From: Halorarum halophilum
Lineage (GTDB): Archaea; Halobacteriota; Halobacteria; Halobacteriales; Haloferacaceae
Length of the DNA: 64,000 bases
NCBI RefSeq assembly: GCF_013401515.1
Contig: NZ_CP058529.1
Location: 2,604,001-2,668,000, forward strand
Reading direction: 5' to 3'
The position numbers and the translations under genes were made by a program. Below the pieces are notes generated by a model that saw nothing but the letters and a program-made list of their open reading frames with translations, was not told the DNA's origin and did not search any database. Below are positions 37,276 to 45,764 of this stretch, piece by piece. The first letter of the stretch is position 1. Each line of letters begins with the position of its first letter.

Positions 37276-37710
37276 TCAGACCACCTCCACAGACACGCCG
37301 TCACGGACGCCGTGGTCGACGACGACGGTCGCACGGTCCGGTCCCGGGGCGATGTCGGCCTCGAAACGCGCCCACTCGCCGGGCAGCCACACGCCGGTGG
37401 TGTCGTCGCCCTCGACGGTCGCGTTCGCCGTTAGGTACGTGTTGTCCGCGAGCACGTCGACGGCGTCGAGGTCCAGCGCGGTCGAGCCGTCGTTCGTCAC
37501 GTTCAGGACGAGCGTCCCGTTCTCGTCGTCGTATGTTGCGTTCGTCACTGTGATGTCCGTGTTCTGCCGGTCGAGGGCGCGGTCATTGGTCTCCTGCTGT
37601 GCGTCGCTGACGAGTTCGGCGCCGTTCGCCACCGCGGGGTAGAACGACCCGGCGGCGATGAACAGGCCGAGGAAGACGACGGCCGTGGCGGCACTAACGC
37701 TGAGGCCCAT
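37276..37710 (-). CDS. arlF: ArlF (FlaF), archaellum stator component binding the S-layer
   Basis: The 144-residue protein has an N-terminal membrane helix (about residues 8-26, AVVFLGLFIAAGSFYPAV) followed by an extracellular immunoglobulin-like beta-sandwich (ITVTNATYDDENGTLVLNVT). It should anchor the stator to the S-layer together with ArlG. It overlaps the end of arlCE by 17 bp, indicating coupled translation. Confidence 0.93.
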   Translation of the reverse strand: MGLSVSAATAVVFLGLFIAAGSFYPAVANGAELVSDAQQETNDRALDRQNTDITVTNATYDDENGTLVLNVTNDGSTALDLDAVDVLADNTYLTANATVEGDDTTGVWLPGEWARFEADIAPGPDRATVVVDHGVRDGVSVEVV

Positions 37711-39049
37711 GGAGGCCCCCCGAGAGCTGTGGCCAGCGGTCGATGACCACCGACTCCGCCGTCGCGTTGGTCAGCTGCATGATGTACTTCAGGCTCTGCG
37801 TGTGGTGGTCCAGGTCGAGCTCGGAGGTGCCGGGCCGATCCATCAGGTTCCGGTCGATGTCGCCGAACCCGGAGAGGAACGCCTTCAGCTGGGTCGCCAC
37901 GTCCTCGTCGATCCACTCGACGCGCTCGTAGTAGTTCACGGCGCGGACGGTGTCGGTGGTGCTCGACTCCTCGACCAGGTACTCGAGCCACTCCATCACC
38001 ATCAGGTCCCCGACGTAGTCGCCCGGGAGGGAGGTGAGGTACGGCTTCCGCGGGCCGTCGGAGAGGTCGTCCTCCTCGACGAACTCGAAGCCGCCCTCGT
38101 CGTCGGCGTTCGCCGTCGGGTCGGTCGGACCGGCCGTCGAGACGGGCTCGGGCGTCGGTTCCGGCTCGGCGTCGAGCGGGTCCTCGTCCGGGCCGTCGAG
38201 GGCGAACGCACCGTCGTCGCCCCCGTCGAGCGGGTCCTCCTCCCCCTCGCCGGCCCACTCCGCGTCGCCGGACTCGTACTCGTCTTTCAGTTCACTGAAA
38301 CTCTTGCCGCCGCCGTTCTCACTGGCCATGTTTTCACTTTCCGTGTCGTCGTCGTCATCGTCGTCCAGGTCGTCCATCGCGTCGAGGTCGCCGAGGTCGT
38401 CCTCGCCGTCCTCCTCGTCGTCGATTAGTTCCTCGTCGAAGAACCCCTCCGCGTCCGCGCTCGCGAGGTCCTCGTCCAGTTCCTCCTCGTCCGCGTCGTC
38501 GTCGCCGTCCTCGTCGAAGAGCCCGAACGAGCCCTCCTCGCCGAGGTCGTCGCCGCCGGCCATGCCGCCGGTCTGTACGTCGTCGACGAACGGGTTGATG
38601 CCGCGCGTAACCATCTCGTAGATGTCGAGCAGGCTGCGCACGTCCTCGCCCATGTCGTCGACCTGTCCGGAGATCTCCTCGTTCTCCGAACGGACGGTGT
38701 TCACGGTGGAGGAGAGGCTGGCGACCTCGTTCTCGAGGTCCTCGAGCCGCTTTTCCAGCTCGGCGGTGTCCTCCTCCTCGTCGTCACCCCCGAAGGGGTC
38801 GTCGTCGTCCCAGTCGTCCATTCCTCCGAGGCCGCCGAGGTCGTCGTCGCCGTCCCCGCCGTCGTCGCCGCCAAAGGCGCCGTCGTCGTCGAGTAACGGG
38901 TCGTCGTCCCCTGCGTCCCCGGCCGACTCGTCGTCATCGCGGAAGCGGTCGAGCAGGCTCGCGCCGAGGAGACCGAACGAGGCCAGCAGCCCCAGTTCGA
39001 CCCCGGCGAAACCTGCTCCTGCTCCCGACAGTGCGGTGAGGAGACCCAT
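37694..39049 (-). CDS. arlCE: ArlC/D/E fusion, switch complex linking CheF to the motor
   Basis: The 451-residue protein has a hydrophobic N-terminus (about residues 8-33) and an extremely Asp/Glu-rich low-complexity region. A coiled coil (about residues 95-150, EKRLEDLENEVASLSSTVN) and a second acidic linker follow. The C-terminal domain of about 125 residues has the ArlD/E signature (RKPYLTSLPGDYVGDL and VMEWLEYLVEE). Haloarchaeal ArlCDE receives the CheY signal through CheF. It is the first arl gene on the minus strand; no separate arlD is seen. Confidence 0.93.
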   Translation of the reverse strand: MGLLTALSGAGAGFAGVELGLLASFGLLGASLLDRFRDDDESAGDAGDDDPLLDDDGAFGGDDGGDGDDDLGGLGGMDDWDDDDPFGGDDEEEDTAELEKRLEDLENEVASLSSTVNTVRSENEEISGQVDDMGEDVRSLLDIYEMVTRGINPFVDDVQTGGMAGGDDLGEEGSFGLFDEDGDDDADEEELDEDLASADAEGFFDEELIDDEEDGEDDLGDLDAMDDLDDDDDDDTESENMASENGGGKSFSELKDEYESGDAEWAGEGEEDPLDGGDDGAFALDGPDEDPLDAEPEPTPEPVSTAGPTDPTANADDEGGFEFVEEDDLSDGPRKPYLTSLPGDYVGDLMVMEWLEYLVEESSTTDTVRAVNYYERVEWIDEDVATQLKAFLSGFGDIDRNLMDRPGTSELDLDHHTQSLKYIMQLTNATAESVVIDRWPQLSGGLHGPQR

Positions 39050-39082: not shown

Positions 39083-39289
39083 TCTCCCCGTCGACTATCA
39101 GGATAGATAACAGCTCCTTGCGGTCCGGAGTTCACTGAACACCCGCGTATCGCCCCGTAGAGTCGGTGTTCGGCCGAATCGGGGACGGGTCGAAGGGGAA
39201 AGAATAGCGTCGGCAGGACGGTTCGACGGCCGAACCCGGAGGGGTGTCCGGAGCGTCGACGATCCCTACCAGCGTGCGTCACCGGCGTC

Positions 39290-41050: not shown

Positions 41051-41413
41051 CTACGCCGGGACGACGTCGTTGATCGCTTCGAGGACGTTCGGCTTCTGGA
41101 ACGGCTTCGTGATGTACCCCTCGGCGCCCGCCTTCACGGCGGCCTTCATCTTCTCCTCCTGGCCGACGGACGTGCACATGATGACGCGGGCGTTCGGGTC
41201 CGAGGAGGTGATCTCCTCGGTCGCCTCGATCCCGTTCCGGATCGGCATCACGATGTCCATCATCACGAGGTCCGGCTCGTGTTCCCCGTACATGTCCACG
41301 GCCTCGACGCCGTTCTCCGCCTCGCCCACGATCTCGAACTCCCCTTCGAGGATCTCGCGAAGGAGGTTCCGCATGAACTCGGAGTCGTCGGCGATGAGCA
41401 CTCTGGTTGACAT
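41051..41413 (-). CDS. cheY: CheY, chemotaxis response regulator
   Basis: The 120-residue single receiver domain has acidic pocket D9 and D10, phosphoacceptor D53 (VMMDIVMP), T81 and K103 (YITKPF). Phospho-CheY should act on the archaellum through CheF and ArlCDE. The first gene of the cheY-cheC-cheD unit, it is separated by 108 bp from an upstream cluster gene of unknown function. Confidence 0.96.
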   Translation of the reverse strand: MSTRVLIADDSEFMRNLLREILEGEFEIVGEAENGVEAVDMYGEHEPDLVMMDIVMPIRNGIEATEEITSSDPNARVIMCTSVGQEEKMKAAVKAGAEGYITKPFQKPNVLEAINDVVPA

Positions 41414-41521
41414 AGCGAAATCGGGTCCCGCGACGGAGATAAACGCTCTCCCCCGGGTATCAACGGTGAAAACGACGGATACGACCGGAAGCTGCCGTAA
41501 CGGACGACGGAACTGCCACGG

Positions 41522-42367: not shown

Positions 42368-42970
42368 TTACAGCTCGACGCCGGACTTGCCGCTGAGGGA
42401 CTCGGGAACCGTGAATCGGATGGCCGTCGTCGAACCGGACATCGTGTTGATCTTGATCGTGACGGATTCGCCCTCGTCGAGTACGTCCGGCTTGTTATCG
42501 CCACTGTTGAGGTCAAAGGTCATTCTAAGCCGGTCGTCCGCGTCGTTGAGAACCGACGCCGAGTTGTCGGCATCCTTTACCTCGGTGACATTGAACTTGC
42601 TATCCGCACTTGTCGCACTATCATCGACCTTATCGTGGACGATCGTGTAAGTTCCGTCCGGTCCGATCCAGTTGACGGAGACGTTTCGAAGGTCGATTTC
42701 ACCAGCGCCGGGGGCCTGGGACACGATCACGTTCACTTTGACAACCTGATCACCTGATACTTCACCGGTCGTACTGACCGCCTGCAGCCGGTCGGACACC
42801 TGCGCGCTCGACTGTTCGCCCGTCGCCTGTGCTTTGCTCTGAAGGAAGCCGGCGGTGTTGATGAGGACGCCCGCGGCGATCGCCGCCACGAGGACCATCG
42901 CGATGAACACGATGAGTGTCCCGATACCAACCTGCCCGCGCTCTTCCTCGTCCGTGATGAATTCGAACAT
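42368..42970 (-). CDS. Archaellin (second copy)
   Basis: The 200-residue prepilin-like protein has a class III signal peptide that the archaeal prepilin peptidase should cut after EEERG, leaving [15 protein letters not shown] as the hydrophobic filament helix. The C-terminal beta domain is variable and ends [15 protein letters not shown]. The first about 48 codons are almost identical at DNA level to the upstream archaellin, whereas the rest is diverged and less GC-rich. It follows that gene by only 3 bp, so both are probably on one mRNA. Confidence 0.95.
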   Translation of the reverse strand: MFEFITDEEERGQVGIGTLIVFIAMVLVAAIAAGVLINTAGFLQSKAQATGEQSSAQVSDRLQAVSTTGEVSGDQVVKVNVIVSQAPGAGEIDLRNVSVNWIGPDGTYTIVHDKVDDSATSADSKFNVTEVKDADNSASVLNDADDRLRMTFDLNSGDNKPDVLDEGESVTIKINTMSGSTTAIRFTVPESLSGKSGVEL

Positions 42971-42973
42971 GGA

Positions 42974-43564
42974 TTACAGCTCCACCGCGTCCTTGTTGCC
43001 GAGCGACTGCGGGACGGTGAACCGGATGGCCGTCGTCGCGCCTGACATGGTGTTGATTTTGACCGTTACTGATTGTCCTTCACCGAGTGCACCAGGCCCG
43101 TCATCGCCGACGAGATGGAACTCGATATTGAACCGGTCGTCGGGGTCATTGAGAACTGTCTCGGAATCGTCAGTATTCTTCACCTTCGAGGTCGTGAAGT
43201 GCCAACCTTCCTCGCCAGACGAGTCGTGAGTTAGGGTCTCCGTTCCCTGCGGTCCGATCCAGGTGACGGTGGCATTCGACAGGTCGACTTCCCCAGATCC
43301 CGGGGCGAGCGTCACCGTCGTGTTAACCCACTCGATCGTTGCGCTGTTGCCAACGCTTCCGGTCGTCGTCACTTCCTGCACTCGATCGGAGACTTGTGAA
43401 CTTGACTGTTGACCGGTTGCCTGTGCTTTGCTCTGGAGGAAGCCGGCGGTGTTGATGAGGACGCCCGCGGCGATCGCCGCCACGAGAACCATCGCGATGA
43501 ACACGATGAGTGTCCCGATACCAACCTGCCCGCGCTCTTCCTCGTCCGTGATGAATTCGAACAT
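42974..43564 (-). CDS. Archaellin (first copy)
   Basis: The 196-residue archaellin has the same class III signal and filament helix ([16 protein letters not shown]) and a diverged outer domain with several N-x-S/T sequons (for example NSA and NAT). Its end, [15 protein letters not shown], is again similar to its partner. It is the promoter-proximal copy and likely the major filament subunit. The start has a Shine-Dalgarno-like aaggta about 12 nt upstream and a TATA box about 85-90 nt upstream, so its mRNA should have a leader of about 60 nt. Confidence 0.95.
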
Positions 43565-43647
43565 TTGTTGTTTCTACCTTAGCTTGGGTCCCGGTTCGGC
43601 TCGGTGCGTCATCACGCGGGCTCTGCTCCCAGCGAATCGGAATCCAC

Positions 43648-43688
43648 TATTAAACCTGCCCCGCTGATTTTCAATACAGAGAATTGAA
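43648..43688 (-). promoter_or_regulatory. Archaellin promoter with upstream dyad
   Basis: The TATA element tttaata (minus strand, 43648-43654) predicts initiation near 43624. About 15 bp upstream of it lies ttcaat-acagaga-attgaa (43670-43688 region), a 6-bp inverted repeat in a window otherwise poor in AT. Its place next to the B-recognition position suits an activator site. The divergent winged-helix gene begins 157 bp further on. Confidence 0.5.
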
Positions 43689-43844
43689 CTGTTACGGCCG
43701 AAGGTATCTCGCGATCGCGATCCTTCGGCCGTCTCCCGAGGACTCACCGGTGATACGCACGAGTAAGGGGACGCTACTATCCCGGTAGCGTCGCCGTATT
43801 TCCGGCGGTACGCTTATGTCGGTGAGAATCATCGGCGATAGTGA

Positions 43845-44186
43845 ATGGCGGCGGAAGATCAGGACATCATCGAGGCCCTGGGGAACAAGTACAACCCCGA
43901 GATCCTCGACGCGGCGGGGGAGCCGATGTCGGCACAGGAGCTCTCCGAGGAGCTGGACGTGCCCATCGCGACCTGTTATCGACGGATCAACGAGCTGGAG
44001 GAGACGGAGCTTCTCGAGCTACACGACCGACCGCTCTCGGACGAGCACCGCCGGATCAAGGTGTACCGACGGAGCGTGGACGGCGTGACCGTGACGTTCC
44101 GCGACGGGCTCACGGTGGAACTCGAGCAGCGCTCCGAGATCAAGAACAAGCTCGACCAGGTCTGGCGGACGATGGCGGACAACTAG
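43845..44186 (+). CDS. Small winged-helix transcriptional regulator
   Basis: The 113-residue protein has an ArsR-like winged helix (about residues 8-85): DAAGEPMSAQELSEELDVP, then the recognition-helix region ATCYRRINELEETELLEL. A short C-terminal helix could dimerise it. It is divergent from the archaellin operon and is a plausible local regulator of archaellum genes; that is inferred from position. A TATA-like cttatg (43813-43818) 27-32 nt upstream supports a leaderless start at 43845. Confidence 0.85.
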   Translation: MAAEDQDIIEALGNKYNPEILDAAGEPMSAQELSEELDVPIATCYRRINELEETELLELHDRPLSDEHRRIKVYRRSVDGVTVTFRDGLTVELEQRSEIKNKLDQVWRTMADN

Positions 44187-44228
44187 AACGCCTACTTCCC
44201 AAGAGACGGGCCGACCTCACCGCCCCTC

Positions 44229-44253
44229 CGTCAGGACGATTCCCGTCCTGACG
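44229..44253. terminator. Perfect 10-bp hairpin between convergent genes
   Basis: cgtcaggacg, loop attcc, cgtcctgacg. It lies in the 102-bp gap between the winged-helix gene and the convergent KaiC-like gene, 43 bp after the first stop codon. A bidirectional terminator is likely from position; a leftover end of a transposon is an alternative. Confidence 0.5.
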
Positions 44254-44288
44254 CTCGAAGCACCAGGGATTCCCCAGGTAAGGGTTTC

Positions 44289-45020
44289 CTAGAAGCCTGC
44301 CTGTGGACCTTCCCGCCCCATCATCGAGAACCCGCCCGCCCGCTCGTACACCTTGATGCCGCCGTCCGCGATCTCCATCGGGAAGATGTCGGTGTCGATG
44401 TCCTGTTTTCGCATCTTCGCGACCCAGATGTAGCGGTTCACGCCGGAGTCGGTCGGCGTCTGGATGAAGTAGATGTTCCCGTCGGTGAGGAAGTTCTCGA
44501 GGCCGATCTCGGTCTCGGGGAACACCGCGCCCTGTTCGTTGATGAGCAGCGAGGTGAGCCCGTTCTGCTTCAGGATGTCGGAGAACTTCAGCAGGTAGGT
44601 GCGCTTCTCCTTCTCGTCCTCGAAGAACAGTTCGAACATCGTGAGCGAGTCGAGGACGAGGCGGTCGTAGTTCGCGTTCGCGAAGTCCTCGAGCAGGGTG
44701 TCCATCGCCGCGGTGAAGTCACCCTCGCGGAGCATCGTGCTCTTGTCGTACACCTTGATGGCGCCCGACTCGACGAGGTCACCCCACTCCTCGAAGCCGA
44801 TCGATTCGGCCGCCTGCTTGATGTCCTCCGCGTTCTCCTCGAATGAGATGTAGATCCCCTGCTCGTCGAACTCCCGGACGCCGTCGTAGAGGTACTGGAT
44901 GCCGAACAGCGACTTCCCGGTCCCCGGGTTCCCGCTAACGAGCACCGTCGCGTTCTTCACTAACCCGCCGTTGAGGATTGAATCGAGTCCCTCCACTCCC
45001 GTCTTGACCGTTTCGACCAT
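44289..45020 (-). CDS. KaiC-like RecA-fold ATPase, single domain
   Basis: The 243-residue protein has Walker A GNPGTGKS at 30-37 with K36 and the opening KTGVEGLDSILNGGLVKN typical of KaiC/GvpD-family ATPases. The Walker B region is LVLDSLTMFELFF. It is a single-domain paralogue related to ArlH. The ATG at 45020 is chosen because a TATA-like atttatgagg (45041-45050) lies 21-30 nt upstream; the longer open frame crosses that box. It flanks the archaellum island, suggesting a regulatory role, which remains unproven. Confidence 0.88.
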   Translation of the reverse strand: MVETVKTGVEGLDSILNGGLVKNATVLVSGNPGTGKSLFGIQYLYDGVREFDEQGIYISFEENAEDIKQAAESIGFEEWGDLVESGAIKVYDKSTMLREGDFTAAMDTLLEDFANANYDRLVLDSLTMFELFFEDEKEKRTYLLKFSDILKQNGLTSLLINEQGAVFPETEIGLENFLTDGNIYFIQTPTDSGVNRYIWVAKMRKQDIDTDIFPMEIADGGIKVYERAGGFSMMGREGPQAGF

Positions 45021-45112
45021 ACTCCCGAATGTTACGCCAGCCTCATAAATGAAAACGGTTGTGCCGCACGTCGAAGCCCATCCGTTAAGTAGAACGTACT
45101 TCCCGTGCGATA

Positions 45113-45119
45113 GTTTTAT
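45113..45119 (+). promoter_or_regulatory. TATA box for leader ORF and HalX regulator
   Basis: gttttat at 45113-45119 is 26-32 nt before the ATG at 45145, which opens a 13-codon ORF. This predicts a transcript whose first codon is that ORF rather than the response regulator. Confidence 0.5.
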
Positions 45120-45144
45120 GCAGGAACCCGACCGCTGGGCCAGT

Positions 45145-45186
45145 ATGACCGACGTGGGCGCGCGCGAAGGGGGGGAGAAACGATGA
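45145..45186 (+). CDS. Possible 13-aa leader peptide upstream of HalX regulator
   Basis: The frame reads MTDVGAREGGEKR and ends in a TGA that overlaps the regulator's ATG (ATGA). A purine-rich gaaggggggga run inside the ORF could act as the Shine-Dalgarno site of the downstream gene. Position relative to the TATA box fits leaderless translation of this ORF followed by coupled translation of the regulator. It could be a chance ORF. Confidence 0.4.
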   Translation: MTDVGAREGGEKR

Positions 45187-45764
45187 CGCGGAGCGTCTTG
45201 ATCGTCGAGGACGAACCGGAGGTCGCGGAGCTGTACCGGGGGTATCTCGAGGGTCGCTACGACGTGCAGGTGGCGAACACGGGCGAGGAGGCGCTCGAAC
45301 TGGTCGACGGGAACGTGGACGCGGTGCTGCTCGACCGACGACTCCCCGACATTTCGGGCGCGGAGGTCCTGGAGGAGATCCGGTCCCGCGAACTCGACTG
45401 CCGAGTCGCGATGGTGACCGCCGTCGAACCCGACGTTGACATCGTCGAGATGGGGTTCGACCTCTACCTCGTCAAGCCGGCGACCAGGGACGACATCCTC
45501 TCGACGATCGAACGGCTCGACACCCGATCGAACTACGACGCGAAACTCCAACGGACGGCCGCGCTCGTGACGAAGCGTGCAGTGCTCGAAGCCGAGCGTA
45601 CGCCGACCGAACTCCGATCCAGTCCCGAGTACGAGGACCTCCTCTCGCGCATCGAATCCCTGCAGAACGACCTCGACGACATCGCCGCGGCGTTCTCGCC
45701 CGACGACTACCGGATGCTGTTCCGCGACATCGGCTCCTCGCGGTCGGCGTCCGAGTCTGCCTGA
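45183..45764 (+). CDS. HalX-domain response regulator
   Basis: The 193-residue protein has an N-terminal receiver domain with acidic residues E9, D10 and E11, phosphoacceptor D51 (LLDRRLPDISG) and the conserved lysine in YLVKPATRDD. A HalX helical domain follows (about residues 125-193), found in haloarchaeal regulators without a known DNA-binding domain. No histidine kinase lies next to it. It stands divergent from the KaiC-like gene beside the archaellum island. Confidence 0.93.
   Translation: MTRSVLIVEDEPEVAELYRGYLEGRYDVQVANTGEEALELVDGNVDAVLLDRRLPDISGAEVLEEIRSRELDCRVAMVTAVEPDVDIVEMGFDLYLVKPATRDDILSTIERLDTRSNYDAKLQRTAALVTKRAVLEAERTPTELRSSPEYEDLLSRIESLQNDLDDIAAAFSPDDYRMLFRDIGSSRSASESA

Follow-up and report, generated by a model that had tools for sequence, protein, structure and literature searches.

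What controls the archaellum genes of Halorarum halophilum, and do the regulatory-looking genes beside the archaellins act together? The window analyzed here, 64,000 nucleotides of contig NZ_CP058529.1 (positions 2,604,001 to 2,668,000), holds a full archaellum and chemotaxis locus that includes arlCE, arlF, arlG, arlH, arlI, arlJ, cheY, a double CheC, and a DUF7500 gene. An initial annotation proposed that a winged-helix protein, a single-domain KaiC-like ATPase, and a HalX response regulator, all divergent from the archaellins and none with an assigned partner, form an archaellum regulatory module. The open reading frames and Pfam families of the three genes were confirmed beside the archaellins (Table 1), and the ATPase is indeed single-domain, with PF06745 found in one stretch. 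Only the winged-helix gene, however, is divergent from the archaellins; it is convergent with the KaiC-like gene, which lies on the archaellin strand, and the HalX gene is instead divergent from the KaiC-like gene, about 1.6 kb from the archaellin start. The explanation that best accounts for the data overall, and which we regard as very likely, is that these genes include the CsmR-CirA motility switch of haloarchaea, in an arrangement characteristic of the Halobaculum/Halorubrum side of its family.

Table 1. Genes and operator-like sites of the window, in window coordinates; empty cells indicate that no value applies.
Feature	Position	Strand	Basis or remark
arlCE, predicted CsmR target, heads arlF/G/H/I/J run	37694..39049	-	FlaC_arch + Arch_fla_DE
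CsmR-like site, 1 mismatch, 60 bp before arlCE start	39096..39109		motif scan
cheY, predicted CsmR target	41051..41413	-	NCBIfam CheY_Halo
CsmR-like site, 1 mismatch, 58 bp before cheY start	41458..41471		motif scan
DUF7500 protein, 261 aa	41522..42307	-	PF24332, E 6.9e-62
Second archaellin, arlA2	42368..42970	-	PF01917
First archaellin, arlA1	42974..43564	-	PF01917
Diverged CsmR-like site TCTCTgtatTGAAA, 3 mismatches, 28 bp ahead of archaellin TATA	43669..43682	-	position -118
CsmR-like site ACTCAccggTGATA, 2 mismatches, csmR-arlA1 intergenic	43742..43755		motif scan
CsmR-like site AATCAtcggCGATA, 2 mismatches, immediately upstream of csmR start codon; predicted to act in autorepression	43827..43840		motif scan
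csmR orthologue, 113-aa ArsR/Phr-type winged-helix regulator	43845..44186	+	Pfam HTH_20, E 1.6e-10; gene neighbourhood
cirA orthologue, single-domain KaiC-like ATPase	44289..45020	-	PF06745 E 3.2e-52, one stretch
13-codon mini-ORF upstream of halX	45145..45186	+	own TGA overlaps halX ATG (ATGA)
REC-HalX response regulator, 193 aa	45183..45764	+	PF00072 E 7.5e-20, PF08663 E 2.9e-19

The claim that none of the three genes has a partner has been overtaken by a study of Haloferax volcanii (PMC13286277, PLoS Genet, 12 June 2026), which describes a pair of genes that controls archaella, chemotaxis, and cell shape: csmR (hvo_1209), which encodes a 13-kDa winged-helix protein and lies upstream of arlA1/arlA2, and the KaiC-like cirA (hvo_1212). 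Deletion of csmR abolished motility, whereas archaellum transcripts were raised despite the lost motility, so that CsmR could be either an activator or a repressor. Loss of cirA resulted in hypermotile permanent rods; CirA restrains archaellum expression and is needed for the rod-to-plate change (PMC13286277, section 2.7). CsmR is a dimer in the published model, and ChIP-seq identified its operator as TATCA-N4-TGATA, located beside the TATA box (PMC13286277). Quorum sensing has also been linked to cirA (PMC12240190). While CsmR binding, the mutant phenotypes, and the motif with its place beside the TATA box were shown by others in H. volcanii (PMC13286277), orthology by neighbourhood, operator conservation, and operator spacing are shown here by computation.

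The winged-helix and KaiC-like genes of the window are identified as the CsmR/CirA pair by position, length, family, and operator. The 113-aa protein falls within the ~13 kDa size class, has one winged-helix DNA-binding domain (HTH_20, AlphaFold2 model), and is encoded next to the archaellins and near the KaiC-like cirA. CirA, 243 aa when counted from its ATG (the mechanical open reading frame is longer), has Walker A (GNPGTGKS) and Walker B (LVLDS) motifs that are conserved in an alignment. The CsmR model (pLDDT 87.7) has Phr (2p4w) as its best PDB match, and the Foldseek matches listed include Phr, ArsR, and other winged-helix proteins, with none among them described as Lrp/AsnC. The latter is the family to which PMC13286277 assigns CsmR, but the best Pfam match here is HTH_20, and the HTH_AsnC-type family scored 16.6 bits against a cut-off of 27. 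CsmR shares the fold of its DNA-binding half with Phr and ArsR-like repressors, which are also named in section 2.6 of that paper, but it differs from them in having a shorter C-terminal part, another operator, and other targets.

The H. volcanii and H. halophilum loci are alike in having a 13-kDa winged-helix gene beside the archaellins, an adjoining single-domain KaiC gene, and TATCA-N4-TGATA before archaellum and chemotaxis promoters. They differ in gene order, which is csmR, arlA1, arlA2, and then cirA in H. volcanii, whereas in the window csmR and cirA are convergent and the archaellins divergent. Unlike the H. volcanii locus, moreover, the window has an operator-like site at the start of csmR and a HalX gene beyond cirA. 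The H. volcanii RNA hvo_1211s sits between arlA2 and cirA, and its position cannot be transferred to the window because csmR, rather than arlA2, ends beside cirA.

That the grouping reflects more than chance is borne out for csmR and cirA by their distribution. Among 145 genomes of the class that were searched, 71 had cirA, defined by a match at E 1e-50 or better, and all 145 had a CsmR-like match, paralogues included. The best csmR match lay within 3.6 kb of cirA in 67 of the 71 cirA genomes. In 45 genomes of family f1, with Halobaculum, Halobonum, Halorubrum, Halolamina, and Halonotius among the named loci, cirA faces the 3' end of csmR; in 22 genomes of family f3, with Haloarcula, Halomicrobium, and Halosimplex among the named loci, cirA is just upstream of csmR on the same strand. 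The gene upstream of cirA in f3 is cheW-like, and the next divergent genes are cheB- and cheA-like, as judged by eye. Of the four remaining genomes, G133 has a contig break, G060 and G134 have the two genes 6.5 and 9 kb apart, respectively, and in G136 the separation is 127 kb. The published H. volcanii gene order was found in genera g3, g6, and g16. In genus g13 (loci L090 and L098), the place of halX is taken by another KaiC-like gene with 30-31% identity to cirA.

Neighbourhood and operator counts, which cover HalX adjacency, csmR, archaellins, cheY, arlCE, and spacers, were taken from 100 loci of 124 regions found in the 145 genomes; gene starts in relatives were chosen by script, and loci lacking a usable start were omitted from each count. 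Operator matches had at most two mismatches to TATCA-N4-TGATA. Expected counts are from shuffles that ignore relatedness, and so counts by genus are given as well.

Conservation of gene order had been proposed as a check on the three-gene module, and the check separates its members: csmR and cirA pass, but halX adjoins cirA in only 31 of the 71 cirA genomes (30 loci plus G133, judged by coordinates), representing 11 of 25 genera, all in part of f1. In 29 of the 30 loci halX is divergent from cirA at a distance of 140-250 bp, and in one it is 2 kb away. No halX was found beside cirA in g3, g6, or g16, which have the published H. volcanii order, in g4 or g13, or in any of f3 (the Haloarcula family). 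A CsmR operator was present in 1 of 31 halX upstream regions (30 cirA neighbours and one halX-like gene in G093; 0.6 expected), and HalX was rejected as a CsmR target on this count. The published pairing, the synteny, and the operator sustain the csmR-cirA part of the proposed module, while HalX is possibly a candidate accessory and lineage-specific input rather than a core part, which limits the wider claim of the initial annotation.

The HalX protein has the features of a REC-HalX regulator, namely a receiver with the acid pair, phospho-Asp, Thr, and Lys residues followed by a HalX domain, and residues E9, D10, D51, T79, and K98 are unchanged in all 30 sequences. Its predicted model consists of the receiver and then long helices; the top Foldseek matches were receiver domains and response regulators, and none of them assigned the HalX-domain part. 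Identity to the window protein is 49-58% outside genera g1, g9, g15, and g17, where cirA is 71-84% identical, so that, on sequence identity relative to cirA, HalX evolves fast. PMC13286277 does not mention HalX, and in the passages of PMC5847659 consulted the function of HalX, including DNA binding, is undocumented. PMC7824242 links HVO_1357, a REC-HalX-GAF-Bat-HTH regulator, to hypermotility; HVO_1357 resembles the window protein in its REC and HalX domains and its motility link, but it also has GAF, Bat, and HTH domains, whereas the window protein ends after HalX.

One alternative, to which we give slightly less than an even chance, is that HalX has nothing to do with the switch and is simply one of the numerous REC-HalX regulators of haloarchaea, kept by chance between cirA and recJ. 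REC-HalX homologues occur in 142 of the 145 genomes, often several in each, and gene order turns over fast in this region, as where the second KaiC gene replaces halX in g13. Chance retention accords poorly, however, with the persistence of the divergent halX-cirA pair in 11 genera, even where recJ has moved or archaella are gone. An unlikely alternative is that the three genes form one signalling unit, in which a kinase would phosphorylate HalX, HalX would control cirA through their shared 162-bp promoter region (or bind CirA), and CirA would in turn set CsmR. The divergent spacing in 29 of 30 loci from 11 genera, the invariant receiver residues, the fact that three Halolamina-type genomes, two of them without archaella, keep halX next to cirA, and the motility link of HVO_1357 (PMC7824242) are all consistent with such a unit. 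Yet csmR and cirA are intact in the 40 of 71 cirA genomes without an adjacent halX (71 less the 30 loci and G133), and the divergence of HalX where cirA is conserved, the scarcity of CsmR operators at halX, and the undocumented state of HalX DNA binding (PMC5847659) all argue against it.

An additional feature upstream of halX is the mini-ORF, whose start lies shortly after the halX TATA box; in 26 of 30 relatives its stop codon and the halX start codon overlap (ATGA/GTGA in 24 and TAATG/TGATG in 2). It is possible that the mini-ORF and halX are translationally coupled. In three Halolamina-type genomes the ATG of the mini-ORF is in frame with halX.

The CsmR operator itself is conserved across the class. 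Of the first archaellins, 58 of 60 had the site upstream (5.1 expected; 21 of 22 genera), as did 62 of 63 cheY genes (1.9 expected; 21 of 21 genera) and 23 of 24 arlCE genes (1.5 expected; 13 of 14 genera); 73 of 96 csmR genes had one no more than 400 bp away (9.35 expected). Archaellins inside operons were counted apart from first archaellins and had a site in 17 of 57 cases. Upstream of cirA the operator was present in 13 of 67 cases, in five genera only (g3, g6, g12, g13, and g16); the gene divergent from cirA in g3, g6, and g16 is of the arlCE type. Sites were rare in control upstream regions (duf7500, 1/63; recJ, 0/29; arlF, 0/39; arlH, 0/33; cheC, 2/55), and the reversed motif gave 0-3 sites per gene set. 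The full signal was obtained with the N4 spacer only and was much weaker with swapped motifs or with spacers of 1-3 or 5-7; N7 was raised at cheY (31/63), probably from a TAAT that follows the site. The operator together with a TATA pattern was found in 83 of 145 genomes, compared with 9 of 145 for the reversed pattern.

The spacing relative to the TATA box suggests how CsmR might act. One-per-genus logos show TTTA 28 bases after the start of the site at archaellin, cheY, and arlCE promoters, whereas at csmR, in many genera, the TATA is ahead of the site and the site abuts the start codon; no such start-codon site was found at the csmR promoter in genera with the published H. volcanii order. 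A site ahead of TATA has a geometry suited to activation, and one between TATA and the csmR start a geometry suited to autorepression. We propose that CsmR, as a small ArsR/Phr-fold protein, binds TATCA-N4-TGATA, and that at the archaellin, arlCE, and cheY promoters, where the operator is about 28 bp ahead of TATA and next to the BRE, it can help TFB recruitment, while it should repress csmR from the operator between its own TATA and start. CirA, as an ATPase with intact Walker motifs, would restrain output, perhaps by acting on CsmR. HalX, a putatively phosphorylation-competent receiver whose gene and cirA diverge from a common promoter region in part of the family, may feed a kinase signal to cirA, and the DUF7500 protein would ride in the archaellin unit. 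It is highly improbable that the winged-helix gene encodes an activator of the EarA type, known from Methanococcus maripaludis and Pyrococcus furiosus, for although EarA is likewise a small winged-helix archaellum regulator that acts just upstream of BRE/TATA and the window gene adjoins archaellins with an operator in that place, the operator is that of CsmR, the best folds are Phr and ArsR-like, and CsmR is reported to be unrelated to EarA in sequence and structure (PMC13286277, section 2.1).

On this evidence, the switch reported in 2026 from a single model species is an old regulator that haloarchaea have conserved widely and whose promoter grammar can be predicted. To our knowledge, three points are new here: how widely the operator is conserved in the class, the autorepression predicted for csmR, and what becomes of the pair in genomes without archaella. 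Our literature search on these points found no other paper, and the terms "autoregulat", "own promoter", and "spacing" do not occur in PMC13286277. The autorepression site and the pilin targets described below are now offered for testing.

Within the window, eight sites had two or fewer mismatches (1.65 expected), four of them at arl/che promoters. The operator and TATA arrangement is present at archaellum and chemotaxis promoters, with the archaellin copy having diverged to 3 mismatches; this copy fails the two-mismatch cut-off and was placed by comparison with G026 (TATCTgtccTGAAA). The whole genome has 28 one-mismatch sites versus 16 for the reversed pattern, and many of the 26 further one-mismatch sites have no fitting gene. 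One-mismatch sites with a TATA-like box behind them and a gene start at ~57-60 lie upstream of cheW, of a second KaiC gene, and of genes for a MinD/ParA-type protein and a membrane protein of sensory appearance, and the gene for an Arch_fla_DE protein has a one-mismatch site with its start at +87. At one locus (L246, C1 2594112-2597852), cheW, with a divergent cheB-like gene, and the second KaiC-like gene each have a one-mismatch site upstream. The MinD/ParA-type ATPase gene (L247, C1 ~2805674) has its one-mismatch site, with a TATA, 57 bp before the start.

The pair also occurs where archaella do not. G017 and G074 have no archaellin match, and G090 has one at 3.4e-4 only; ArlI was over the cut-off in none of the three, and yet csmR adjoins cirA in all three and G074 and G090 also keep halX. 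PMC13286277 states that csmR always co-occurs with archaellins in Halobacteria, a statement tempered by the retention of csmR in genomes without archaellins. The two best operator and TATA matches in G017, 1.6 kb apart, precede pilin-like genes, as does one of three in G074 (pilins were recognized by eye). A pilin target was found in G088 too, and because this Halobaculum-group genome is archaellated, such targets are not special to genomes lacking the archaellum. Nine f4 genomes without archaellin likewise have no ArlI over the cut-off; in the two that were opened, G004 and G029, a conserved operator match precedes cheY, and the other seven have near-identical 32-base matches. Totals of operator and TATA matches over the reversed control were mixed, with an excess in G017 (12 versus 7) and G029 (11 versus 4) but none in G074 (3 versus 5) or G004 (10 versus 10) and no clear one in G090 (5 versus 4), and a full second regulon in all archaellum-less genomes with csmR is therefore not supported. 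A broader proposal, possible but rather doubtful at present, is that CsmR regulates chemosensing and surface filaments throughout the class and is not specifically an archaellum regulator, that a single operator-TATA geometry lets it serve both archaella and type IV pili while it represses its own gene from a site on the other side of TATA, that it was kept after archaellum loss (pilin-like targets in G017 and G074, cheY in G004 and G029), and that a HalX phosphorelay input was added beside cirA on the Halobaculum/Halorubrum side.

The 261-aa protein had also been suggested as a module member. It is a DUF7500 protein of the cluster, but nothing points to a regulatory role. Its gene follows arlA2 at a distance of 60 bp, on that gene's strand and without a site of its own, and the protein looks like a product of the archaellin operon. 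Direct control by CsmR was rejected, given an operator in only 1/63 duf7500 upstream regions, and CsmR would thus reach the gene only via read-through from the archaellins. No paper was found that mentions DUF7500 by name. Membership of recJ in the module was likewise rejected, as no operator was found upstream of it and it has often moved away. Elsewhere in the genome (L236, C1 ~1273115), a 163-aa DUF7500 paralogue has a one-mismatch CsmR-like site 58 bp before its start, with a weak TATA. Finally, the region between the convergent csmR and cirA genes contains a perfect 9-bp inverted repeat with a 5-base loop at 44230-44252 (GTCAGGACG / CGTCCTGAC).
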